A program made the position numbers and the translations under genes. The notes under the pieces were generated by a model, which did not search any database, had not been told where the DNA came from, and saw only the letters and a program-made list of their open reading frames with translations. 64,000 nt of DNA from Rhizophagus irregularis (taxonomy: Eukaryota > Glomeromycota > Glomeromycetes > Glomerales > Glomeraceae), in assembly GCF_026210795.1 (NCBI RefSeq), contig NC_089441.1, positions 868,001 to 932,000 of the forward strand, given 5' to 3'. Below are positions 3,284 to 61,446 of the stretch, piece by piece (position 1 is the stretch's first letter; every line of letters begins with the position of its first letter).

Positions 3284-4229
3284 GCCATGTGGCGCAGTAA
3301 ATTTAATAATTTAAAAAAAAATGATTTTTGTTTGATAATAAAAGATCAATGAATCATGGTTTTGATAATATAATAAAGATTTGTTTGCGAATTTATTGTG
3401 AAGTCTATTTGAGAAATTATTTTAAAAGCCACAAAATAATTGTAATACGCAAAATAAACAAAAATCATTATTGACTACTAAAAAAGAAGTTGCGAGACAA
3501 ATAGATTTTTTTTACACGAGTTTGATCATGTTTGTATGATTATTTAATACATTTATGGAAATTTGTGCAACTTGCTAAAAGAGTTTTTTTTTACCCCATT
3601 TTTTTTTTAAAAAAAAAAAGAAAATATGTAAAAGGAAAAAAACTGCATCGATTCGTTAGGAATGAGGATAGAGCGTTATGGGATTCAGATTCACCATCCT
3701 TTAATCCTAATTATATATAATCTAAGAATATTAAATTTGCAAAAGTTTCTGGTAGATAACAATTTTGATGATCATTTGATCATTTAACCTGCGAGTTTAT
3801 GGCTAAAAAATTTGTATCACCGTATTTTTAAAGTACAACGGGTTGGGTTACCGAATAGGAATAATTAGCATCTGCTTACTCTACGATAATCAATAAATCA
3901 AATGTATCCATTAAAATTCCCTTTTTAATTCTGACGGAATATATCAGTTCCGATTCTGAGATAAAATCAATCTTATTGTGAAATAAGTAATGGGTAACTG
4001 TATCAATGATTAATAATTATAGACTTTTTATTCTATTGATAGACTTTATCCATCTTTTTAAATAGACATAATAGTAAAAATTTCGAAATCTATTTTATTA
4101 TATCGATTCACAAAATCACATGTTGGTACTGCTACAAGTAAAAACCGGAATTCATAATATCTATACTTATTTTCATATAAGTAGATCCATTATTATTTTG
4201 CACTACATTATAGTTTTACTATTTGAAAA

Positions 4230-5936
4230 ATGACAGACTTTTTAAATTATTCTTCATTATTAATTTCTACAACAATAAAACATTATCTTAATGGACCTCC
4301 AAGACCTTCATGGAATTTGAAAAATCATTTATCTTTTGCAAAGTTTGTATTATTCAATAGTGCCGAAACAATTGAGCAATTTCAAAGTGTCAGTTCTCTT
4401 CCTGTTCCTGCAAAAACTGGCGTGATTATAAATGAATTTAAGATAAACAATAAATATAGAAATGAAGCACAAGTTTATCTTGATAAAATTTTGAAACCAT
4501 ATGAACATGTTTTAGACCCTGAATGGAAAAATTTAAAAGATGATGGAATTTTTGCTGAATGGGTTCAAGTTCCTAATGATGAATGGGAAAAAAGAGAAGT
4601 TAGGAAAACTATTTTGTATTTACACGGTGGAGCTTATTCTTTTCTTTGTAAAAAATCTCATCGTCCTATTACAAGCTCTTTTGCTAAAATGGCAAATGCA
4701 AGAGTTTTAGGTAAGCTTAATCTTGGAAGAATGAAATTTTTATTAATCTATAAATCTATATCTAACTAAAATTTTCGTTTATAGTAATCAATTACCGGCT
4801 AGCACCTCAAAATCAATTTCCTGCCGCATTACATGATGCATTATCTGCTTATTTATATCTTTTAAATCCTCCAAAAGATGCGGGATTTGAACCTTTAAAT
4901 CCAAAAAATATTGTCTTTGCTGGTAATAGTGCTGGAGGCGGTTTAAGTCTAGCTCTTGGTCTTGCTATACGTGATGCTGGTTTGCCATCATCGGCTGGTA
5001 TTATCGGTTCGGTAAATATAGATTATATTTTTTTTTCTTTGTATTATATTTATTAATCATTCATATGATAATATCACGACACATTACAGAGCCCATGGGT
5101 TGATCTAACAGTTAGCATGCCTTCAATAATAAATGATGAATGTGCTGATTTTCTTCCAAATCTGAAAAGTGGTCTTGCTGATAAATTTACAGAATCTCAA
5201 GCTAGTAAAGAATACAAAGAAAAAGATGCTGCGTTCGCAGCGAAGATTAAGAACCAAAATCTTGGTCCAAAAATTTGGCATGATTCCTTTAATAGACCTG
5301 ATGGAAGATTACAATTATACGTAGCTAATGAAGGTTTAGCAATTCCATATGTTAGTCCAATGTTAGCTGAAAGCTTATGCGATTTGCCTCCTTTATTATT
5401 GGTAATAAAAGATATCCCTTGATCCTCTCTTAGATTTTTTTTGTACTAAAAAAGGATTTATTTGTATAATATAGACTGCAGGAGATGATGAAAGATTACG
5501 AGATGAAATAATTTATTTTGCTCATAAATCTGCTGAACCAACTAAATATAAAGGTCCATCTTATAATGCTGGTAAATTTGAAAAATCTCCATTCCAAACT
5601 CCGACAAATACTACACTTGAAATATATGAAGAAATGCCTCACGACTTCCAAGTAAATATTACTAAAAATTGATTTTATTTTTTTTTTAAAAAAAAAATAA
5701 AAATTAACTCTTTTAATAATGTATTCTAGTTGTTAATGGAGCATGTTTGCACTACGAAGTCATATGAACGTATGGTTGAATTTATAAATAGGGTGACGAA
5801 TATTCTTAACGAACCTCTTCCTCCTCTTCCTCCTTCCTCTTATAATTACATAAATGTTAAAGGAGAGTTTGGTCCTTTAAAGGAACGTCATGAAAAAGTT
5901 CTTAATTGGGATAAAATTGGCATTGTACCAAGCTAA
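4230..5936 (+). CDS. Alpha/beta hydrolase, HSL-type esterase/lipase, copy A (5 exons)
   Basis: Exons 4230-4710, 4785-5011, 5090-5401, 5475-5651 and 5730-5936 join in frame to 467 residues; every junction is GT/AG. The product matches the alpha/beta hydrolase fold-3 (hormone-sensitive lipase) family: oxyanion motif HGGA at residues 132-135, the YRLAP block right after it, nucleophile motif GNSAG with Ser209, Asp in GDDE (about 344-345) and His396 in MPHDF. It should hydrolyse short ester bonds (steryl acetate, acylglycerol or xenobiotic esters); substrate cannot be read. No signal peptide is obvious. The third glycine of the family's HGGG is alanine here but glycine in copy B, a possible activity difference. 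The ATG is the first in frame and aligned in both paralogues. Confidence 0.9.
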
Positions 5937-6775
5937 TTAATCACACGAAATGAATTGAAATGAATTCAATGCTACTTCACTATTTCACGTAAATTGATAA
6001 GTAAGTTAATAATAAATTTTAAATTTGCGAAATAAGATCTTATTAATTTATCTGAAGATTTATTTTTAGTATACTGAAACTTTTGTATATATTACTGTAT
6101 ATTTCATTTTTTGTTATTTTTATTTATTTATTTATTTTATTTATTTTTTTATTTTTTTTTTACAATTGAAAATAAAATTTCAAATTGATTATAATAATTT
6201 TTCCGAGTGTTAAAATATAAAGTTCTATTTTAATTATGTAAGTCAGAAATTCAAATGTGTAGATTATTGTTGCAAAATCATAAAATCATCTACCCGCCCT
6301 AACATACTAAAACACGAATTGATACGAGACTTGTAAGTACGATGATAAGTTTTTAATTTCAAATTGCCGCAGCATATCCAATCCGAGTCACTGTTATCAC
6401 TTCACTAAGTTCGTGATTTTGTATAATATCATTTCCGGTAGAGTTGCACATTCCATTATTTATCTATGGATGTGCGAGAGAGAATAAATAATTTCAAAGC
6501 CTTATTGGAAAACGTAAAAACTTAAAAATTAATGGGTAAAATGTACCTGCTTTTTGAATATATGTTCGCTATGAGTACTATAATTCAAAATTTTTCAGTT
6601 AATGATTTTGATATTATACTTTAATAACAACCTTAATACTATATTTCACCTTCCAGAATGACATAAATACTTTTCACCTGTCAAAAGGTCTTATGTTTTA
6701 GGAAGAATATGTAAATGGGAGAGAATCTTCTTAGTAACCAAGTATTGGGTAAGAAATGGCAAATACATTAGGTGA
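5937..6775. other. 3' flank of esterase copy A
   Basis: Contains A+T-rich sequence with TTTA repeats (6115-6160) and otherwise only sequence shared with the flank of copy B. The stretch 6640-6775 recurs at 17255-17435. No gene seen. Confidence 0.6.
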
Positions 6776-6810
6776 GCCATATGGCGCAGTAAATTTAATA
6801 ATAACAATCA

Positions 6811-9741
6811 CTGGTCGAAGTGGGATGATTTGCATGAAGTTTATTGCCCATAAATAGCTTATACATTTGTTGATCTCAATTACGCTTAAGAAATCTCCAT
6901 CAAATTTAATTTATAGATTGAAACGGGTAAAATTTATTGTAAATTTTATGATTTTAAAACTAATTCGCTAATTATAATGTATAAATTCTAAATAAATTTT
7001 AATTAAATTTAATATCAATGTTTATTACGCATATAATAGCTTGAAATTTACTTGAAATATGATATTAAATTTGCAACAAGCCATTTACTTACTATTATTG
7101 AAATTTTGCTATACTAAAACAAAATTTATATTATTACAAAATTACAAAAAAAAGCAAAGAGATAATCATAAACTTCGTAGCCACGCTCAATTAAGGCAAT
7201 GTATTACTAGACCTATGCTAAAGATGACTTTAGCAAGGCTTTCTTTGTGAAATTAAAAGAAATTTCATACACTTTGCCAGCTGGTGAGAAAGCTTATGAC
7301 CTCTAATAATCTCAAGTCAATTTATATTAAAAAATCTAGAATGTTTGTGAGAAATAATAATTAATGTTATATTATTGTATTTGCTATTTGTGTCATTTTG
7401 TGATGGTTAAGTTGAACATATTCCAAGCATCAAAAACCATAATTGCAGTTTATTATTTTGAAGAGTATAAAAGAAAATGTAAAGAAAATTAAAAAATAGT
7501 TTATTCGTGATTAAAAATAGTTAAAATAGTTAAAATAGTTTAATATGTTATATCAATCCTCAAAATGGAATCGGGTCCTATTTTGTCATGTGTATCACAT
7601 GATATAATAACTGATAGGCGCAGTTCAATGACGGATAATCTTTCTTTAAAAAAAAAGTTTGTTCTTTCCCATAATTCCTTTCCCTCTTTCTCCTTCATTA
7701 ATTTTTTTTTCACAACAATGACATCAATGAGCTATTGGTATGAACAACTGACAAAAATTAAAGGAAATGAACAAATAATTCCAATGGCTCAAAGTTGAAG
7801 TTCAACTGAACATTTTCGCAAATAGTGCTCTCTTAGGTGATTTCTTTTTATTTTTATCAATTTTTTGAATTTTTTTTTGTTTTATCGTTATTTACTATAA
7901 TTTTCTTTTTTTTCTTATTATTTTTCATAAAATTTTTTCCAAGCCTATGATAGCTGGACTTGAAGAAAACAAAAGTAAAAATTATACTTTACAATAAAAC
8001 AAGAACTGGAAATTAAAATAAATGGCAAGTTAGTTTTGTTTTAATAGTTCATTATTAGTATTAGAAATGTATTAAAATTTTCTTTTTAATTTTTTAAAGG
8101 TAACAGAGAATCTTCAGACGATTGGTGATTATTGGGGAAAAAGTTTCTATAAAAAATGTATTAAATGTTCCTTCTTTTTTTTTTGGTAGGTAATGTTCTC
8201 TGGAGGGACTTTTTGGACAGTAAGTAAAATTTTTGGGAAAAGAATTTCGCCATTAATTATGAGGAACATACTAAATTTCCTTTTTTTTATTTTTTTGTAG
8301 GTAATGACTTGTCTGTGGAAGACTTTTGGATAGTGAGTTATTTCTTTTGAGAGGAATTCGTCATTTATCTGTAAGAAATGTCTGACGCTTCTTTTTTTAA
8401 TCTTTATAGGTTCTGTATTTCCAGACTTTGGTAAGCTATTTGAATTCAGAATTGACTTTAAGAAACCTATTTTAAAAGAATTTTATTAATGAAATTTTTC
8501 TTTTTTTATTTTTTAGCCTTATGGTACTTTGGATCTTTGAAGCAGAATTTTGTTAATGGAAGATGAAGTTTTTTCTCTCATTTTAACGTGGATTTTTTTG
8601 ACACATGGACTTCTGATAATTCTTTTTTTAAAGTTCTTTTTTTTAATTTAAAAAAAGGGAAAGTGATTTTTAAATTATTTTTAATGAATTCAGTTTTTTA
8701 GACGGCTTCATTAGGATCTTTAGACACGTAGGTTATGGTGTACTTTTTTTTATATTCTTAAACTTTTTTTTTAATATAATATTAACCTAACAACTTCATT
8801 TTCGTTCTTATTTGGATAAGTCTTCAGCTCTTTGGAGGCTGATTTCGGTAAGATATTTTTTTCTTTGACATTAAAAAATGATTACTAACTTTTTTTTCTT
8901 TTATAGATGACTTGCTCTTTGGTATCCAGAGATATTTTTGAACATGGATTTCGTAAGTTCAATTTTTTTCTTTAATTTTTCTTTTAACAAAGAATGATCA
9001 CTAATATTCATCATCTTTCTTTTTTCAGATGGTTGGTTTTTTGACTTTTTAAACACGTGAAAACTTGGTGAGATTTGTTTCTAATTATGCATTTCAATGA
9101 AATGTTTTTACTAACATTTCAATTTTCTCTTTTTTAGATGGTCTAGGTCTCTGAATCAAATGTTTAGGGATCTTGTAGAAAAGAAGTTTGAGGTTAGAGA
9201 TCATAGGCTTTCTCACCAGCTGGCAAAGTGTATGAAATTTCTTTTAATTCACAAAGAAAGCCTTGCTAAAGTCATCTTTAGTGTAGGTCTAGTAATACAT
9301 TGCCTTAATTGAGCGTGGCTACGAAGTTTATGATTCTTAAATAGAAGTGAAGTTTCATTATAATATACATAAAATTTATATAAAATTTATAATAATTTAT
9401 TGTATTTATTGTTAATATTTTAGCTATATATTTGCAAATATGAGCGAAATTTCATTAACATTTCTTATATCATAAAAAATTTCTGTTTAATGTATTATAA
9501 GTTTAAATGATATATAAAGAAGGTTTTATCACAATTTAAAATACATTTATATAATAGAAACTTGTAAATTTCAAATGACATATACACTTCATGGAAATTG
9601 GACAAGTTTACAACAAATTTCCTTAATATACACTTTAATTGGAATTAATTGAAATTACTGGTAAATCAATTTGAAATGTGACGTGTATATAAAATTTCTC
9701 TAGTGTAAATGTATTGCACATCCCCCTACTTCGACCAGTGA
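6811..9741. mobile_element. Inverted-repeat element carrying exon-intron array 1
   Basis: Outer ends are inverted copies of CACTGGTCGAAGTRGGG (left from 6811, right ending at 9741). A second, longer inverted pair of about 140 bp lies inside (about 7163-7307 against 9189-9340), sharing runs such as CTTCGTAGCCACGCTCAATT. A clear target-site duplication was not found. It lies directly beside the right end of duplication copy 1. The interior has no transposase; it contains a leader (about 7565-7640), a pyrimidine-rich stretch and the exon-intron array. The leader phrase TGTATCACATG...GATATAAT...GCAGTTCAATGAC recurs before array 2 at about 43190-43225. A non-autonomous DNA element is the likeliest reading. 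Confidence 0.65.
8095..9190 (+). repeat. Exon-intron array 1 (tandem micro-exon modules)
   Basis: About ten exon-like pieces of 21-50 nt alternate with 55-95-nt segments that start GTAAG/GTGAG and end in a long pyrimidine tract plus AG. Clear examples are exons 8821-8847, 8907-8952 and 9029-9067, with introns 8848-8906 and 8953-9028. Introns contain CTAAC or CTAAT branch-like sites 25-35 nt before AG. Exons resemble one another around TCTTTGGATC, TTTAAACACGTG and a final TTTCG or ACTTG before GT. Lengths are not multiples of three and no continuous frame results, so a spliced non-coding RNA or decayed module repeat is more likely than a protein gene. Confidence 0.6.
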
Positions 9742-9745
9742 ATAA

Positions 9746-10100
9746 AAAACTTCATGAACTTTATGTTATTCATTTCAAATATCAATAGAACTCCTCCTTA
9801 TAACAAATAAATTTAGGAAAGCAGAATATTTTATCTTATTCTAGCTATAGTACCCTATAAAAAACCCTAAAAAAAAATCATTCGAAAAATGTGTTAATTC
9901 ATATGATATTCATGCGATTTTGTATTTTATTCAATAAACATCCGAATTTAAAAAAAAGCAATTTTAGTTAAATTTTAAGCATTTAAATAGTATCCTCCGA
10001 AAATAATTTAAAAAATGTACAAAAAAAGTCGTAAACAAAATCATCATATTAACAATCAATTAATATGATACAAAAAAATACAATTTTTGTTACTTAATCG
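9746..10100. other. Gene-free spacer
   Basis: A+T-rich sequence between the inverted-repeat element and the minus-strand pseudogene; nothing recognisable. Confidence 0.5.
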
Positions 10101-12747: not shown

Positions 12748-13024
12748 GATATTAATAACAATAGACTTTTTATTTGGGACTTTTTATCCATCTTTTTAAA
12801 TAAACCCCACCCAAATAGGAACCGTAGGATAATAAACAATATGTTATTTATAAGTACCAAAAAAATATTATATAACTAGTTATAGATATATTAATAGTAA
12901 AAATTTCGAAATCTTCACAGAATCACATGCTGGTACTGCTACAAGTAAAAACCGGAATTCATACTTATTCTCATATAAATAGATCCATTATTTTGCACTA
13001 CATTATAGTTTTACTATTTGAAAA

Positions 13025-14725
13025 ATGACCGACTTTTTAAATTATTCTTCATTATTAATTTCTACAACAATAAAACATTATCTTAATGGACCTCCAAGAC
13101 CTTCATGGGATTTGAAAAATCATTTAACTTTTGCAAAGTTTTCATCATCATCCAATAGTACCAAAACAATTGAGCAATTACAAACTGTTAATTCTGTTCC
13201 TGTTCCTGCAAAAACTGGCGTGATTATAAATGAATTGAAGATAAATAATGAATATAGAAATGAAGCACAAGTTCATCTTGATAAAATTTTGAAACCATAT
13301 GAACATGTTTTAGACCCTGAATGGAAAAATTTAAAAGATGATGGAATTTTTGCTGAATGGGTTCAAGTTCCTAATGATGAATGGGAAAAAAGAGAAGTTA
13401 GGAAAACTATTTTGTTTTTACACGGTGGAGGTTATATTTTTCTTCGTAAAGAATCTCATCGTCCTATTACAAGCTCTCTTGCTAAAATAGCAAATGCAAG
13501 AGTTTTAGGTATGCTTAATCTTGGAAGAATGAAATTTTTATTAATCTTTAAATCTATATCTAACTAAAATTTTCGTTTATAGTAATCAATTACCGGCTAG
13601 CACCTCAAAATCAATTTCCTGCCGCATTACATGATGCATTGGCTGCTTATTTATATCTTTTAAATCCTCCAAAAGATGCGGGATTTGAACCTTTAAATCC
13701 AAAAAATATTGTCTTTGCTGGCAATAGTGCTGGAGGCGGTTTAAGTCTAGCTCTTGGTCTTGCTATACGTGATGCTGGTTTGTCATCATCGGGTGGTATT
13801 ATCGGTTCGGTAAATATAGATTATACTTTTTTTTCTTTGTATTGTATTACCAATCATTCACATGATAATATCACGACACATTACAGAGCCCATGGGTTGA
13901 TCTAACAGTTAGCATGCCTTCAAGAGTAAGTGACGAATGTGCTGATTTTATTCCAAATCGTAAAGGTGGTGGTACTGCTGATAATTTTACAGAATCTCAA
14001 GCTAGTAAAGAATACAAAGAAAAAGATGCTGCACTCGCAGCGAAGATTAAGAATCAAAATCTTGGTCCAAAAATTTGGCATGATTCCTTTAATAGACCTG
14101 GTGGAAGATTACAATTATACGTAGCTAATGAAGGTTTAGCAATTCCATATGTTAGTCCAATGTTAGCTGAAAGCTTATGCGATTTGCCTCCTTTATTATT
14201 GGTAATAAAAGATATCCCTTGATCCTCTCTTAGATTTTTTTTATACTAAAAAGGATTTATTTGTATAATATAGACTGTAGGAGATGATGAAAGATTACTA
14301 GATGAAGTGATTTATTTTGCTCATAGAGCTGCTGAACCAACTAAATATAAAGGTCCATCTTATAATGCTGGTAAATTTGAAAAATCTCCATTCCAAACTC
14401 CGACAAATACTACACTTGAAATATATGAAGAAATGCCTCACGACTTCCAAGTAAATATTACTAAAAATTGATTTTATTTTTTTATTAAAAAAAATTAAAA
14501 ATTAACTCTTCTAATAATGTATTCTAGATGTTAATGGAACATGTTTGCACTACGAAATCATATGAACGTATGGCTGAATTCATAAATAGGGTGACGAATA
14601 TTCTTAACGAACCTCTTCCTCCTTCCTCTTATAATTGTGTAAATGTTAAAGGAGAGTTTGGTCCTTTAAAGGGACGTCATGAAAAATGTCTTAATTGGGA
14701 TAAAATTGGCATTGTACCAAGCTAA
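13025..14725 (+). CDS. Alpha/beta hydrolase, HSL-type esterase/lipase, copy B (5 exons)
   Basis: Exons 13025-13508, 13583-13809, 13887-14201, 14274-14450 and 14528-14725 give 466 residues in one frame with the same intron positions as copy A. Family motifs: HGGG at 133-136, YRLAP, GNSAG with Ser210, GDDE Asp near 346, and His398 in MPHDF. Relative to copy A there are two one-codon insertions (the SSSS stretch near residue 42, and the GGGT stretch after the third exon start) and a three-codon loss in the proline run near the C-terminus, all preserving frame. That pattern and the retained catalytic triad suggest both copies remain under selection. Predicted cytosolic or membrane-associated ester hydrolase; substrate unknown. 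Confidence 0.9.
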
Positions 14726-15236
14726 TTAATCACACGAAATGAATTGAAATGAATTCAATACTACTTCACTATTTCACGTAAATTGATAAGTAAGTTAATA
14801 ATAAATTTAATAGATTTTAAATTGTGAAATAATAAGATCATATTAATTTATCTGAAGATTTTCTTTTTAGTGTACTGAAACTTTCGTATATATTACGGTA
14901 TATTTCATTTTTTGTTAGCTAGTTTATTTATTTATTTATTTTATTTTATTTATTTTTTGTTTTTTTTTTCATTTTACAATTAAAAATAAAATTTCAAATT
15001 GATTATAATAATTTTTACGAATTTTAAAATATAAAGTTCTATTTTAATTAATGGAAGTATTTTGTAAGTCAGAAATTCAAATATGTTGATTATTGTTGCA
15101 AAATCATAAAATCATCTACCCGCCCTAAACAAAAAACACGAATTGATACGAGTACGATGAAAAGTTTTTAATTTCAAATTGCCGCAGCATATCCAATCCG
15201 AGAGTATCAGTCACATGTGATTTTGTATAATTTATG

Positions 15237-34849: not shown

Positions 34850-37290
34850 TATATACTCACATTTATTTGTACATTAGAATAATTCAGCTTGAGATTTTGT
34901 GTTTGATTTATGTTTGTATTTGAGTTACTCAATACTTTGTTGTTTTTAAACATTCTCATCAAATCAAAAAAATAAAAGATTTTGAAGTTAACTTCAAAAC
35001 TTACCATCCATCGTTCTGTTGAATCCAACATCTAGGACTGAATCTACAAAATAAATAGATACATTAATGAATGTTTCATTAAAAAAATAAATGTTGAAAA
35101 TGGATTAAAAGGGCTGGATCTTACCAAATTTCACGTGTCTAAAGGTCCAGCTATCGAAAATGTTTCAATAATTCAACTCAACCAATTTACTAAAAATAGA
35201 AGCATGAATCCTACAAAAATTAAACAAAAGTCCTTCTTTTAAAAGATAGTTTTGAAAGTTTTCAGCCTATAAGATTAAAGAAATGCTCAAAGAATGTTTT
35301 AAATTATTTCCAAGGATTCTGAATCAAAGTCAAAATCCTATGAAAAAAAAAGGCAGGTTTTGAAAGTGATCTGAAACTTACTAAGAAATCTGCCTATAAC
35401 CCAAAAGTTGAAGCTGGAGTCCTTAGAAAATAGATAAAAAATAAAAAGTTATCAACATGATAACCTAGTAGTACCAGAATACTTAGTTTCTTCATACATT
35501 CCTATAAAAAGCCTAAAAAAAGAAAGGATTAACAAAATGTTGGTTAACATTTCATTAAAAATAAGACTTAAAGTAAAAACCCACATTCAAAATTCCAAAT
35601 GTCTAAAAATCAGAGGAACTAGTCTTCTAAAAAAAAGAAAAAAAGTAAAATTTCATTAAATTAATAAAGTCCATTAAAACCCATAGAAAACAAATGCCTA
35701 GATCAAAATTGCTGAATTCTGAGTGATACATCTAAAAAAAGAATAAATGAAATATTAGAATAATATTTTGTTAAAAGAGATATATTGAAAAGAACCCTCC
35801 TCCTACCAAATCCAACATGTTTGAAGGCTAAAATAAAGGAAAAATCCAAAAAAAAGAAAGATTAATATATAACAAAAAATACAACAAAATAAGAAGAAAA
35901 TCAGAAGAAACTAATGGGAATTTTGAGAAAAGACCTAAAAGAAATCTAGTACAGAAAAACTATAATAATTTCTGGATAAGGTGATAATTATGAAGATATC
36001 ACAGTGATAATTATGCAAATATTACAGTGATAATTACAAAGATGTTACAAAAGAATCACAGCAATAATTATTAAGATATCACAAGAGAAGTCACAAAGAA
36101 AAAATAGAAAATTTTAAGTAAAGAAAATACAGGACAACCAAAAAGAAGAAATGGCTGGAAAACTATAAAAGAAATATTACAAAAGAAAAAAATAAATAAT
36201 TTTTAATAAAATCATCAAATTTTATTAGAGATGAAATTCTAAATCATTAAAGAATTGCAACAATTAATTAATAGATGATTGACAAAAATGCTGAAAAAGA
36301 TAATTGACAAGAAGATCAACAAAAGTATAGAAAACAAACCAATGAAAATTTAGACCTGAAGTTATCAACCAGTTAGAAAAATATTTTGAGAGTAACACAA
36401 AAAAAATTGTATACCTACTATAATAGGGAGAGGATAAAATCTTGAATCAAATAATTATGATTGAGGTGCAGTATTGGAATACAAAATCAATACATACAAT
36501 TTGGAGGATCACAAGGCTTGAGTTCAATTCTTTTAAGGCATATAGATTTATAAAATTTTATAATAGAGATTTAAAAATATAATAATTAGACATGAGTTCG
36601 ATTCAATTAGATTTGTGAGAACACAAATTTTTAAAGGTGGAAATAATGTAACTGCCAAGTACCAAGCATGAATATCATAGAATAGAAAGTCTTAAATAGA
36701 GTAGAAAATTAGAAAATTAGAATATAATGCTAGTTATGTGGATAGCAATGCAGATTACTCCAGGTCATGAGTCTAAACTGATTCCATATATAGTGTTTTA
36801 TACTATATAGTTCTATGAAACATATTTTTATATTTGAAGGATCAAATTTTTGCTTGAATAAATAATGGACTTTATTTTGAAATTCAAGTTGTATTTTTGT
36901 GAAATTAATGAAGATGATTGTGTGGGAACACTTTAGTGGGAATCATAGGCTTCACCATTTAAAAAAAAGAAATGAAATGTTAAGTTTGCTTTCTTGCTGA
37001 ATTCCTATGCATCTCCTGGCCATCTAAATGAAACAAAATATAACATTAGCAAACATTTCAAAAAAAATAAATTTAAAATAAAGAAAAGAAAAACTAAAAT
37101 TACCCTACCAAAATTCCATATTTGAAATAACCACCTAAAAAAAAAGAAAGGAAATAAACTATTAACCACTTGTTAAAATAAAGAACAATTTAAGAAAAAA
37201 AAAACAGAAAAACTTACTAAAATTTTGTGCCTCAAAGATCAAAAAGAGAATAAAAGAACTATCTAAAAAAATAAAAAATATTCTGACATT
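34850..37290 (-). repeat. Exon-intron array 2 (minus strand)
   Basis: Read on the minus strand, exon-like pieces of about 25-50 nt sit between AG (after a T-rich tract) and GTAAG/GTAGG. Examples: 37134-37109 (26 nt, GTGGTTATTTCAAATATGG...), 35150-35125 (26 nt, holding CTTTAGACACGTG), and one ending at a donor near 35004. Introns contain GAAATGTTTGCTAATGTT, the same stem-with-branch-site phrase seen in the other arrays. The core CTTTAGACACGTG nearly equals exon cores at 8728 and 43676. No continuous frame is produced. Several modules are worn, so exact ends in the middle are uncertain. Confidence 0.55.
36480..36830. other. tRNA-like B-box phrases, possible SINE remnant
   Basis: GAGTTCAATTC (36522) and GAGTTCGATTC (36593) resemble pol III B boxes, with similar context and about 70 bases between them. 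No full tRNA cloverleaf can be built. Confidence 0.25.
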
Positions 37291-42384: not shown

Positions 42385-43244
42385 TAAATTACCTCCTGTT
42401 ATTTGGTACTACACGTGTGTGTAATACAAAAAAGGACTAATGGCAAAATTATGTCCTATGTCCCATGCTCGACAAAATTAGCCCCTGTACTACTATGATA
42501 TAAACTTCTATAAATAATTCTTTAACTATGCAATAATACAAATTCCTTTTTTATAAATTTGAAAATAAAAAATGAGTTACAATAATAAGGACGAGATAGT
42601 ACAATTAGAAACTGAATTTAATGAATTGAATATTTCTGATAGAAATCCAAATTTCAATCATGAATATTGTTATAAACTAAAAGGTGACAAATTATGGTGT
42701 AAAGAATGTGTTCCTTATTATACAATTGAAGGATGGACCAGTGGGAATAATGGGATTGATGAATTCTTTGCTAACAATGCTAAATTTTCATAATGCATTG
42801 TGCAATCATTGTACAAGTCTTGTACAAGGTATTTTAAATCTGAAAATATATAGTACGATATTTCTAACAATACATTTTTAATATTAATTTATTCACAATC
42901 AATTGTAAAATATATAATTCTGATACATTTTCCAATGAATCTTAAAATCTTTTACAATGTTTTCACAAGATTTTACTTATATATATATTGTACAAAATAT
43001 TGTATAATGAATTTTCACAATTAATTATTTATAACATAATCTAATTACCATTAACGTTAATATATACTAGGTGTATAATCTAATTACATTAAAAACCCTA
43101 CGGGCTTTTCGTAAAATTTATATATTAAAAATATAAAAAAAAGAATTCGAATTTCGGAGAAACCCATGGCCCTATTTATATAAAATTATGTATCACGTGC
43201 ATTTGATATAATCCGCAGTTCGATGACTTTGATCAACTAACTTT

Positions 43245-43555
43245 TTTATAACTTTTTTTTTCTTTAAACTTTTTTTCTTATAAACTTTTTTTTCTTTAAA
43301 CTTTTTTTTCTTTCTTATAAACTTTTTTTTTCTCCTTTTAAACTTTTTTTTCTTCTTTTAAATAAACTTTTTTTTTACTTTTTGATTCATTCTTCCCTTT
43401 TCCTTCGTTCACCCTTTCACTTCCCTTCGTATCCTTCTTTCATCTCTTCCTTGTTCTTTCCTTTTCTTTTCCTCCCTTTTCCCTTTACTTTTACATTCCC
43501 CTTCTCTTTTCTTTCTCTTTTCCCGCTTCTCTCGCACTTTTTGTTGAAGAAATCT
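43245..43555 (+). promoter_or_regulatory. Pyrimidine-rich tract before array 3
   Basis: First a repeat of TAAACTTTTTTTTCTT (43250-43380), then about 170 nt of almost pure C and T, then the first exon-like piece. A similar leader phrase ahead of it (43185-43225) matches one in array 1. This is the probable promoter or 5' region of the array transcript; inference only. Confidence 0.4.
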
Positions 43556-45505
43556 TAAGCGTTTCCTCCTTAGGTGCAAATTTCTGGTAAGTTTGTCTTT
43601 TTTTTTAATTGTTTCATTTTAACGAACGATTTTTAATAGTTGTTTTTCTTACTTTTTTTTAGACTTCGAGTATTTAGACGCGTGAGAATATGGTGGGAAA
43701 ATTTTTTCTTAATATCTATTTTAATGAAACGTTTCTAACGTTTCAAATTTTTTCTTTTTTTTAGATGGTTCTTATGGTCTTCTTGGACGCAGCATTTCGG
43801 CAAGTTTATTAGAAATCATTTGTAAAATAAATAAAATGACAGTTTTTTCTTAACTTTTTTTAGACAACATGATTCTTTGGCTATTTGAACGCGTGGGAAT
43901 ATGGTGGCTAATATGGTGGGAAATTTTCTTTTTTTTTTAATTATCTATTTTAACAAAACGTTTTACTAATTCGATTTTCTCTTTTTTTTAGACATATTAT
44001 TTCGGTAGGAATTTCCAAAAAAAAAAAAAAAAAAAAAATATTTTTTTTTTATTTCTTTAACGAAATGTTTTACTAACATTTCGATTTTCTCTTTTCTTTT
44101 TTTAGACGGTCAGTCCTTGGGCGCGTATTATTTTGGTAGGGCTTTTTGAAAAAAAATCTTTTTCTTTAATTTCTTTCTTTTTAATGAAACGTTTTGCTAA
44201 CGTTTCGTTTTTCTCTTCTTTTATCTTAGACAGCAAGCACTTCAGGATCTTTGGATACGCGGAACTTCACTTTCGGTAAGTTTTTTCTCTGTTTTAGTCT
44301 ATTTATTTTAACAAAACGCATTTTAACATTCAATTTTATTCTTGTTTTTTAGATAGGGCTAAACGTTTCGTTCTTTCTTTTGGAGATTTTATTAAAATGA
44401 ATTTAAATTATAGTTATAAAAATGACCGAGGAAGTAATCATGAAATTACAGATTTTGAAAAACAGTAAGTGAAAACAACAGTTCCGTATTCTCTTTTGAC
44501 GGCAAAATGCGAACCAGAAGTGGAATTTGGTAGTGAGCTAACCTTTATGATTTTTTTTTACGCTTCTTTTCAGTACTAATATTTCATGTTCCTCTTTTTT
44601 TAGATGGCTGATACTTCGAATTTCTTTAGACATGCGAGAATTTGGTGGGTGGGTTTTTCTTTGAGACAGTTAAGTTTCAAAAAAAAAAAAATTTTTGAAC
44701 TTTAAAAAAAAAACATTTTTTGTGGGAACTTTGGTTCCAAATCGGACATGGCAGAATCAGGTAAGTTCTTAAAAATTATTTAAAGACCTTAAAAACATTT
44801 TATTGACGTTTTTTCTATTATATAGGTCCTGGATCATATTTTTAGTGTTTCAAAATTTTTGAAACTTTCCTTTTGTAGATTTGAATGGACTAAACCATCA
44901 GAAGAGATAAAGTAAGTTTCATCATGAACTTTGCTTCTTTTAATTTTTTAATAAAAGAAACGTATTGTTAATGTTTCTCTATTTTTTTTTGTAAGATTCG
45001 AATTCTGACCATGGAAGATTAAGTTTACGTATGTATCATTACAAAACTTAGTTTTATTTTATTTTTCTTTTAACTTTGATATTTTAACGAAGTCTTACAT
45101 CTTTTGCTTCTTTTTTTAGACGGCTAGTTTTTTAGATCTTTGAAGTTTTGACATGTAAAATTCATGTTAATTTAGTGGGATTCTATTCTTATTGTAAATT
45201 ATTCTTTAATTGTTTCTCTCCTTTTTAGATGGATTGTTCTTCGAGTATTTGTTGCATGGAATTCGGTAGATGATCTTTTCTTTGAACTATTTTTCTAACG
45301 GAATGTCTATTAACATTTCGTTTTACTTTTCTAGTCGGGTATAGATGTGTGAAATTAGTTGGATTATTTCTTTTATTAGGCAGCCAGTTTTTCGGGTCTC
45401 TCTGACTCTTTTTGAACATGTTGGTTTTTGGATTTCGGTAAGTGTATTTTTTTCATTAGTTTGTTTATATTAATGAATGTTACTTCATTCTTTTTTTTTC
45501 AGGAA
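43556..45505 (+). repeat. Exon-intron array 3 (tandem micro-exon modules)
   Basis: The clearest of the three arrays. Exons include 43765-43799 (35 nt), 43864-43903 (40), 44106-44135 (30) and 44230-44275 (46), plus one of only about 13 nt near 43994. Each follows a T-rich tract plus TTAG and begins A(C/T)GG or ACA, and ends TTTCG or AATATG before GTAAG/GTAGG/GTGG. One donor is GCAAG. Introns of 64-95 nt share a stem-forming phrase TGAAACGTTTTGCTAACGTTTCG, which contains the branch-site sequence CTAAC. Exon lengths do not keep a frame. Confidence 0.65.
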
Positions 45506-47401
45506 ATTTTTTTCGTTTCTTTTTAATAGTATTCGCATCTACACCAAAAAAACAAAGAATGGTAAAAAAATGAACACTTATAAGGATGTAAAGTAGTTGT
45601 ATAAAGAAAATGAAAATAAAAGAGAAAAGAAACTTGATTGCAAGGAAAGAGAGAAGAGTAATTAAATGAGGATAGAGGAGGATTGACATCTTACGTGTGA
45701 TGAACCATAGAATTAATTTTTAGATAATATTACATTAAATAAGTAAATTATAATGTATTTTATAATTAAATTTTACAATATATTTTCAATAAATATTACA
45801 ATAAATTTTACAGTATATTTTTCAATAAATTTTATAATATATTTTACAATAATTTGCTACAATTTATATTAAATATACATGTTAATAAATTAATGTTACA
45901 ATAAATTTTATACTAACTATTGTACAATGTCCCTACAAGACCAATAACGAGTATCTTAACATGGTTTGTATATAATATACTGTAATATTAATTTTACAAT
46001 GTATTTTAGAAATTTTAGGTTGTTAGCAAAGTTTATCAAGGATACGATTTATAATGCAAAAAATAATTATTTTTATAATGGCAAATTTTATCCAAAATTT
46101 CTTGAATGGGTACCATTTGATAGATTTGAGGATATAAACCAAATTGGTGAAGGTGGGTTTGCTAAAGTATATTCCGCAACATGGATTGATGGCAAAACGA
46201 AATATAAAAGACATGACGGAAGTTTGGAAAAAAGAGAACCTGAACCTATAAAAGTTGCTTTGAAAAAATTGAATGAATCACAAAATATTTCACCAGAATA
46301 TTTAAATGAAGTATATTTCCACTTTTTTTATTGTTATCTAATTTTAAAATATAATTATTAATTACAATTATTGATTTTTAAATTTTCATAGATTAAAATA
46401 CTTTGGAATTTTTACTTAAATGAAACTAGTGATACTTATTTAAAATTTTATGGAATAACTAAAGATGACAAAACTAAAAAGTTTATGATGATTATGCAGT
46501 TAGTAAATCAAGGAAATTTAAGAAGTGTTCTTTCAAGTAATTTTAATAATATCGTTTGGATTGAAAAATTACTAGTCTTACATAACATATTATATGATCT
46601 TAAAGATTTGCATAAATTGGGTTATTTTCATAAAGATTTAAATATATTACTGAATAGAAAAGAAGAACCTGATAAAAATCTTTCTTATGTTTCAGATTTT
46701 GGATTATCAGGACCATCAAATGAACATAAATCCGATAATAAAACTTGTGGAGTATTGCCATACATTTCTCCAGAAGTTTTGAATGGTGAACCATATTCAT
46801 TAATCATTATCTTCTGATATCTATAGTTTTGGTATAATTATGGCAGAATTATCATCTGGAAGATCTCCTTTTTATAATAGAAAACATGATTATAGCTTAG
46901 CATTAGAAATATGTAATGGAATCAGGCCTGAATTTGGAAAGGGAACTCCTGAAATTTATAAAAAATTAGCATATAGATGTATGAGTGCTATTCCAAATCA
47001 AAGACCAACAGCTAGTGAATTATATGACATATTAAATTTTTGGTATATTTCTCATTATAGATATTTATCAAGAAGAGGAAAATTTTGGTTATAAGGGAAA
47101 AGAAATTAAAGCTACTTTTGATGAAGCTAATAAAGAAATACCAAATATTTCAACTTCACATGAAAAAAATCCTGATGCCGTATACACAAGTAGGGTATTT
47201 ACATTTAGTAGTAATTTGCCAAAACCTATTAATTCATCTATTATTACTTCGTATCTTGATGAAGATAATAAAGGTATTGTACTTGAACTATTACTATTAT
47301 GATTATTCCTTCTATATGATTAGTCCTATAATTACTTTTTTTTTTATTGTTTTATAGATTGTCAAGATTCTAAATTATTTGATTTAGAGGTTTCTAGTTA
47401 A

Positions 47402-60417: not shown

Positions 60418-61446
60418 ATGACGCAAAAAAGGAAGTTAATAGAGCCATTAGCCTCGGAAAATTCAGCATCAAAAAGGAAGAAATTTACCGATTCAGGAAA
60501 TTCGGCATCAAAAAGGAAGAAATTTGCCGATTCAAGGAAGAAATTTGGTAAAAAAAATTTTCCTTATAATTGATAAGATATAACATATATATCATATATA
60601 TTAACTCTTTTTTTAACTCTTTTTTTTATTAGATATTAATGAAATAGATTTCAACCGTACTTACAACCTTGAGGAGTTTGAATTCATCAAAGACCACATT
60701 AAGGATAATTATCCCAACTTTGAGTTTGTAAATGGAAAACTAGTTCCTGTTTCATATTCTCCTATTGTATATGAAGCTATTGTACATGAAATATCTAGAC
60801 AGCTTGGTAATTGGAATATTAATAATTCCAAGAATGGTGTTGTCACCACATCTAAAGGAGGTTTTGATTTTAACGTTTCTGGTGGTCAGAAAATTCGAGC
60901 ACCAAACGTTACTTTTACACCTGCCAATATTTATCGTTCACTTGATGAAGAACAACTTTGGTCTTTTAATGGGCAACCCTTTACCCCTTTTTTTGTTGTT
61001 GAAGTTGCAAATCTCAAGAAAAAAGAAGTAGATAAAGAAATTGATACTAAATTTAAGAAGGAATATTTTGCAATTGGTACTTCTGTGGAGTTAGGATGGT
61101 TAATTGATCCATTGAATCGCATTATCCAGGTTTACAAAAGAAATAAGAATGGTGAACCTTATCGTAGAAAGCGGCCATGGGTTTATTTGGAAGGTGGTAA
61201 ACATTTACCAGGTTTTACTTTAGAATTGTGGCCTATTGATGATATCATTGCTCAGGTAATAAATATATTATATGTTATAATAGTAGTTGTTAAATATCTC
61301 ATTTTTAAAATTTCACTATTTTTTAGGAAATAAATTATGAAGATGATAGTAGCGAAGAAGAAGATGAAGAAGAATGCCCTTACTGTAATGCAAGTATTAA
61401 AGGCGCCTCTCAAATGGTAAAACATATACAAAATAAACATAATTGA
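60418..61446 (+). CDS. Uma2-family nuclease-like protein fused to a C2H2 zinc finger
   Basis: Exons 60418-60547, 60633-61255 and 61327-61446 give 290 residues. The basic N-terminus repeats ASKRKKF twice, a likely nuclear localisation signal. Residues about 55-250 match the Uma2 (DUF820) restriction-endonuclease-like fold: FEFVNGKLVP, then RAPNVTF (131-138), VVEVANL (165-171), and the IGTSVELGWLIDP block. The usual Asp of the PD motif is Asn135 here, which may abolish or change catalysis. An acidic stretch (SSEEEDEEE) leads to a C2H2-like finger: Cys268, Cys271, His284, His289. Uma2 proteins are mostly bacterial; AM fungi hold an expanded set, so old transfer is inferred. The ATG is chosen because the upstream in-frame extension crosses the pyrimidine leader. 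Confidence 0.88.

Follow-up and report, generated by a model that had tools for sequence, protein, structure and literature searches.

Arrays of predicted micro-exons and introns carried by two families of non-autonomous DNA transposons in Rhizophagus irregularis

Non-autonomous transposons with terminal inverted repeats (TIRs) are common, and several described systems resemble the arrays presented here. CACTA/EnSpm elements are recognized by CAC..GTG ends together with a target-site duplication (TSD) of 3 bp, and a TSD of 2 bp is reported for PlavakaA and some PlavakaB; in its available part, this CACTA/Plavaka account makes no mention of micro-exon cargo (PMC12730594). Schistosome micro-exon genes (MEGs), which our arrays resemble in their many tiny exons and in the association with transposable elements, are described in the accessible portion of the source as having short (≤36 bp), symmetric exons coding for exposed or secreted proteins (PMC8293314). 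In fungi of the Hypoxylaceae, introner-like elements and internally symmetrical stwintrons likewise form families of similar introns that have inverted-repeat symmetry; the available sections describe them at new gene positions without flanking duplications (PMC8469720), whereas the introns presented here belong to tandem exon-plus-intron modules inside TIR elements. The SP7-like effectors share with the arrays the same fungus, repeat units and dispersed paralogues, and in the part of the source at hand they are marked by a signal peptide, hydrophilic coding repeats, a Y[KR]Rx[AP]x[AP] motif, and a conserved intron before the first repeat (PMC11333574). Among the best-ranked results from the open-licence literature, no description was found of a TIR transposon with a tandem micro-exon/intron interior and covarying branch-site hairpins; the carrier is a known kind of transposon, and the cargo is new to us.

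The genome searched was that of R. irregularis DAOM197198 (146,748,485 bp, 32 contigs), and the window, meaning the whole 64,000-nucleotide stretch analysed, corresponds to C13:868001-932000. An earlier note on this DNA had claimed three arrays of homologous micro-exons and introns; those at 43.6-45.5 kb and 8.0-9.1 kb are borne out, while that at 35-37 kb is weaker. Array 3 (43587-45502, plus strand) consists of two clusters separated by 408 nt without a predicted intron. In the first cluster (43587-44352), seven predicted introns (43587-43662, 43693-43764, 43800-43863, 43916-43991, 44005-44105, 44136-44229 and 44276-44352) enclose internal exons of 30, 35, 52, 13, 30 and 46 nt. The second cluster (44761-45502) has six introns and exons of 49, 33, 55, 37 and 103 nt. 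The note had placed this array at 43556-45505, where it is indeed found, but the interval is incomplete, as the full unit is an element spanning 42766-46031. Array 1 (8025-9137, plus strand) comprises a six-intron cluster at 8025-8701 and further introns at 8848-8906, 8953-9028 and 9068-9137. In the case of array 2, the splice-site model scan gives its clearest six-intron cluster at 35267-35952 on the minus strand, and the remainder of 37290-34850 (minus) is weaker than this cluster; terminal repeats were sought for array 2 and none were found.

The exon pieces cited in the original claim are present beyond chance: with ≤1 mismatch allowed, the motif TTTRGACRYGTG is matched 9 times in the window, including 7 times within the three reported stretches; in 100 shuffles the mean was 1.15 and no shuffle reached 9. 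By alignment and exon consensus, homology extends to whole exon-plus-intron modules, both inside arrays and from one array to another; the modules are ~110 bp long, and in several clusters they are spaced at 106-131 bp. A simple tandem repeat was rejected, TRF giving no module array in 43587-45502 or 8025-9137. Both sequence reading and scans show donors of the GTAAG, GTGAG or GTAGG type followed by a branch-site motif, a long T tract and AG; the introns look ordinary, and their splice signals resemble those of the host. The splice-site model was applied to 27 regions (20 fetched loci, the three window arrays, and L051, L052, L053 and L055) and predicts 242 introns in clusters of ≥4, as opposed to 39 for the same sequences reversed, a ratio that is optimistic because these sequences also served to train the model. 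A cluster of ≥4 introns is present in 25/27 regions; among the fetched loci it is present in 18, L036 and L039 having only three-intron clusters. The clearest cluster of L051 lies on the opposite strand from two further introns. The predicted introns of the 27 regions have a median length of 78 nt (5-95% range 59-115), and most exons (178 of 207) fall below 60 nt.

The element carrying array 3 (42766-46031, plus strand, 3,266 bp) has TIRs and a 2-bp TSD and is inserted in sense orientation in a protein-kinase frame. Its left TIR, CTTTGCTAACAATGCTAAATTT (42766-42787, plus), pairs with the right TIR, CTTTGCTAACAACCTAAAATTT in the minus-strand reading (46010-46031); the outermost CTTTGCTAACAA matches at 12/12 bases, and the repeat continues imperfectly for ~40 bp. 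The duplicated TT is read at both flanks (42764-42765 and 46032-46033). The N-terminal part of the kinase frame (42572-42765, plus; MSYNN...NNGIDE) runs up to the left end of the element, and the frame resumes at 46032 with FIKDTIYNAK..., the kinase domain being located at 46392-46814. A relative in the window shows DEFIKNTIYNAK uninterrupted. A sister copy of the element lies 0.66 Mb away (C13:1576984-1580394), with an identity of 97.7% over 2,974 bp and 99.7% over 326 bp. Compared with one another, the copies end sharply at shared positions.

In the whole genome, the CTTTGCTAACAA TIR pattern has 56 matches and none when reversed (74 versus 4 for a looser pattern), and dispersal is further seen in at least 77 genome matches, for which 40 of 201 candidates were scored. 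There are 12 TIR pairs less than 15 kb apart, in addition to a pair on C16 at 13 kb, which, from the reading of its ORFs, holds a non-LTR retrotransposon. The pairs on C4 and C8 match the 3' part of array 1, and in the C22 pair 1.9 kb of sequence was covered. Predicted arrays are present in all ten two-ended elements of this CTTTGC family that were read, and each of the ten also has a 2-bp TSD (TT, AA, TA or TG), in which the family resembles Plavaka (TSD of 2 or 3 bp). In contrast, its ends (CTTTGCTAACAA..TTGTTAGCAAAG) differ from the CAC..GTG, TGT..ACA and CATCA..TGATG ends of CACTA/Plavaka. The note had also offered tandem introner-like elements, a reading that is not supported: what moves is the complete transposon, 2.6-4.7 kb in size (13 kb with the retrotransposon inside) and bounded by TIRs and TSDs.

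Array 1 is found in another kind of element. This CACTA-type element (6809-9740, plus strand, 2,932 bp) has the ends CACTGGTCGAAGT..ACTTCGACCAGTG, a perfect TIR of 13/13 bp with CAC..GTG termini, and a 3-bp TSD, AAT, read at either flank of the window copy (1/1), so that in its CACTG ends and TSD it resembles CACTA/EnSpm (CMC). No ORF of ≥120 aa between 6809 and 9740 appears in the window ORF list. With 6900-9800 as the query, copies of 100% identity (rounded) are present on C19, C8 and C10, and copies of 96% on C7 and C4, all with the same right end; the near-100% copies on three other contigs indicate that array 1 moved very recently. Copies on C14, C6, C22 and C23 have internal gaps in or near the array. 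The array is flanked by a 143-bp inverted repeat (7164-7306, minus; partner 9194-9335, plus; 96.5% identity), single copies of which occur elsewhere, e.g. at C6:657079, C28:2737105 and C20:1527696, and which may itself belong to a separate small dispersed repeat. Within this recently moved element, a 26-codon ORF (MTSMSYW..., 7719-7799) lies between promoter-like sequence and the array. The element itself sits between the two copies of a tandem duplication (4069-6387 and 12892-15202, 91.9%) of a gene read as hydrolase-like from LHGGAYSF/LHGGGYIF; the first hydrolase-like ORF has no Pfam match. The ends of the CTTTGCTAACAA and CACTGGTCGAAGT families gave no convincing alignment with each other, and homology between them was rejected for this reason. 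At the level of sequence it is established, as the note had not seen, that non-autonomous DNA transposons carry the predicted arrays 3 and 1. These transposons belong to two families that differ in their ends and have copies on many contigs, and the modules look to have been multiplied inside them.

Upstream of array 3, the alignment of seven loci reveals a conserved promoter-like block (43171-43230, plus), with a TATA-like CCCTATTTATATAAAATT followed by TGATATAATCCGCAGTTCGATGA; the latter has 23 genome matches at ≤3 mismatches and 0 for the reversed pattern. A pyrimidine-rich tract (43371-43540, plus), likewise conserved in the alignment, precedes the putative transcription start and may have a role there. 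The predicted exon 1 (43541-43586, plus) begins with TTGTTGAAGAAATCTTAAGCGTTTC, ends in CTG before GTAAG, and contains no ATG; it has 14 genome matches at ≤3 mismatches and 0 reversed. The block, the tract and exon 1 together suggest a Pol II promoter and start. The best reading overall, and in our judgement a probable one, is that the transposons carry a promoter-driven, many-intron, non-coding transcription unit. The element's own promoter would drive transcription of the unit, the host spliceosome would join the micro-exons into a short non-coding RNA, modules would be gained and lost through unequal exchange inside the element, and a transposase would be supplied in trans; the exon sequence would be of little importance. 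At the weakest step of this scheme, efficient splicing and transcription would be kept, the many-intron transcript resembling a host gene and being in this way shielded from small-RNA or chromatin silencing.

The alternative that survives best, still rather unlikely, is a decayed or mis-modelled coding micro-exon gene family (e.g. for secreted effectors, on the pattern of schistosome MEGs) that was captured by transposons, with ~10-12 residues per exon and decay after capture. The exon size and the repeated modules fit such a family, the exon consensus is free of stops in all three frames, and the joined array of L043 has a 77-residue ATG frame; moreover, single copies need not keep the frame, because transposon copies decay. 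Against it, the exon lengths break frame, as the note had stated, with 72, 71 and 64 of 207 exons leaving remainders of 0, 1 and 2 modulo 3, which also sets the arrays apart from schistosome MEGs, where exons are symmetric; the arrays differ from MEGs also in keeping no frame and in being located, as entire units, within transposons. None of 26 joined arrays (lacking first and last exons, with gaps of up to 400 nt bridged) has a longest frame that beats shuffles at p<0.05, the lowest p being 0.14, in agreement with the earlier claim. This extends to the recently moved array 1, for which the joined part gives p=0.245. Homologous exons differ between copies by indels of 1, 3, 4, 13 and 15 bases, those of 1 and 4 bases speaking against a kept frame, as does the lack of ATG in the predicted exon 1. 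From the even modulo-3 lengths and the absence of long frames, the unit looks non-coding, and a coding gene was rejected on these grounds. A known structured RNA was also rejected: the window has no Rfam match at gathering scores, and 6800-9750 has none at E≤1.

Spliced retrocopies, as a proof of splicing, were looked for and none were found: the 93 matches to joined exons are single exons with small overhangs, except three that extend ≥15 bases across a predicted junction. Two of the three are located in known elements (C11:2344644; C17:2005371, 70%). The third, C17:2961203-2961283 (78% over query 285-356), could be a chance match or a spliced copy.

Less probable again is the explanation that the palindromes within the arrays are DNA-binding sites of a transposase, the arrays being unspliced and their GT/AG and T tracts incidental. 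The introns do share a branch-site palindrome, as the note had observed, e.g. GAAACGTTTTGCTAACGTTTC at 44186, with arms that covary across introns; a genome search for the pattern (≤2 mismatches) gave 197 matches and 0 for the reversed pattern. Its core, TTTGCTAAC, is present in the TIR CTTTGCTAACAA as well, in keeping with binding sites. CACTA elements have repeated subterminal binding motifs, which is a further point in favor of this explanation. Covariation alone is no proof of RNA pairing, since palindromes are symmetric in DNA, and the hairpin symmetry could act in DNA or RNA. Yet the repeats fill the interior of the element and not its ends, and donor, branch site, T tract and acceptor are ordered on one strand, as seen in the difference between the scans of direct and reversed sequences. 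The conservation of the promoter-like block and exon 1, and the presence of a like array in the element with unrelated ends at 6809-9740, also count against binding sites, as does the fate of the splice sites in diverged copies. There, predicted splice dinucleotides are kept at 77/83 positions, compared with 289/406 for other GT/AG of the same stretches (one-sided p ~6e-6, GC being allowed beside GT at the donors and not in the background). Taken alone, L038 (p=0.003) and L040 (p=0.013) are significant, and C16 (p=0.053) and L033/L037 (p=0.20) are not. The near-identical L041 and L047, kept out of this count, retain 28/28 and 26/26 splice sites versus 126/132 and 123/127 other GT/AG.

Stems of ≥6 bp spanning the branch site were found in 68 of 176 introns, compared with a mean of 34.4 when right arms were swapped (30 permutations) and 24.2 when left arms were shuffled; the arm-swap test does not yield a strict probability, because the introns are related and not independent. 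For the exon and hairpin sets the close copies L031, L042, L047 and L055 were dropped, and 18 of 194 introns were left out for short arms or as duplicates. The arms vary in sequence with pairing kept, as in AACGAACT/AGTTCGTT, GAAACGTT/AACGTTTC, GAACGGTT/AACCGTTC and AACGAAATGTT/AACATTTCGTT. In a comparison with 14 candidate host introns (two of which are L038 array introns), such stems are present in 4, namely one array intron and three composed of A/T only. Among the first 100 palindrome sites listed, 19 have a known end, promoter or exon-1 match no more than 5 kb away (0.85 expected at random). The other 81 are beyond 5 kb, five of them in the fetched loci L036, L039 and L050, and introns of this class are therefore not confined to the two transposon families. 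Four periodic sets of palindromes with 115-131 bp spacing (C1:3299654-3300040, C2:984120-984503, C7:5268815-5269201 and C10:2310100-2310363) are alike across contigs (GAAACGTTATATTAACGTTTC where read) and lie away from the known TIR families.

Exons and introns were also compared for conservation among close copies. In the three-copy set, the variable sites are 26/460 in exons, 22/1049 in introns and 6/465 outside the array, and in L033/L037 they are 19/243, 9/538 and 186/2768, respectively. The WIN/L031 pair shows the opposite (1/475, 5/982 and 15/1204), so that exons diverge more than introns in 2/3 close sets. In the pooled set (the L042/L047 pair excluded and columns within 4 of a gap dropped), all 38 variable exon sites involve G or C. 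At non-CpG G/C sites, 26/357 are variable in exons, 20/478 in introns and 148/1132 in the rest of the element; the difference between exons and introns has p=0.065 at these sites and p=0.81 at CpG sites, and L033/L037 taken alone gives p=0.022. Base composition accounts for much of the excess in exons. We read the exon divergence as probable G/C to A/T decay, with some constraint on the introns; diversifying selection on exons was rejected, most of the excess being change at G/C sites.

That the arrays arose by repeated tandem landing of introner-like elements, with the intron as the mobile unit, is very improbable: homologous introns do occur in many places, as the palindrome matches attest, but the TIRs and TSDs of the moving units lie outside the arrays, the spacing within several clusters is regular, and the exons are homologous too, which means that whole exon-plus-intron modules were copied. 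Scattered single insertions may nevertheless occur among the 76 of the first 100 listed palindrome sites that lie outside the fetched loci and away from known ends.

Returning to the spliced, non-coding transcription unit, a more far-reaching version of it can be put forward tentatively, as a possibility that we hold to be the less likely outcome: DNA transposons would use the host spliceosome as a device, consisting of a promoter and tandem modules in which hairpin introns are selected and exons are filler, and the spliced non-coding RNA would shield the element from silencing or serve transposition. We infer that the introns may help the transposon, for example against silencing, for which one precedent, a C. 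elegans study, describes in its available part introns that hinder nuclear RNAi (PMC5554785). If the arrays are spliced, exon-intron modules multiply within mobile DNA, from which new introns and exons can arise, and nature provides in the arrays a test of whether a high density of introns protects transposons against silencing. According to the accessible part of another source, unclassified repeats make up two thirds of R. irregularis transposable elements (PMC11075540), and array-bearing elements could account for part of them. For gene annotators they are a warning of false multi-exon genes.

With respect to the source of transposase, the genome contains at least 123 scored Plavaka matches, none of which is inside the 12 TIR pairs or the C16 pair. 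A transposase-like gene is present within the C22 TIR pair (C22:3635600-3637500, L056), and two relatives are located 4,402 and 4,412 bp inward from a variant TIR, CTTTGCTAACATCATAAAATTT. Four inward gene/TIR pairs occur within 8 kb, compared with 0.54 expected from random placement on approximate contig sizes (p ~0.01), two of the four being the two ends of C22. For the pieces of the gene, Pfam gave nothing above cut-off and PDB nothing noteworthy, and it is a candidate helper only. This transposase-like family has at least 148 scored matches in the genome; L057 (C13:611700-613400) reads VDLYYDDFGTYRNVYHSLGGVYIQFGNMP. An 11.3-kb element on C5 with a 545-aa ORF was considered as a transposase source and rejected, since the element is C5:823200-827909 and the ORF has no Pfam match. 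In L052 (C5:816450-822300), this ORF is overlapped upstream by a 173-aa ORF in another frame, with a variant TIR adjoining, and a 92-aa ORF there has a phage-lysozyme match.

Two other features of the window are worth recording. The Uma2 family (PF05685) is best known from bacteria, and an ORF similar to Uma2-type endonucleases is located at 60617-61333. The first 1,349 nucleotides (1-1349) are made of tandem ~60-bp units with GTCA and TGAC motifs.
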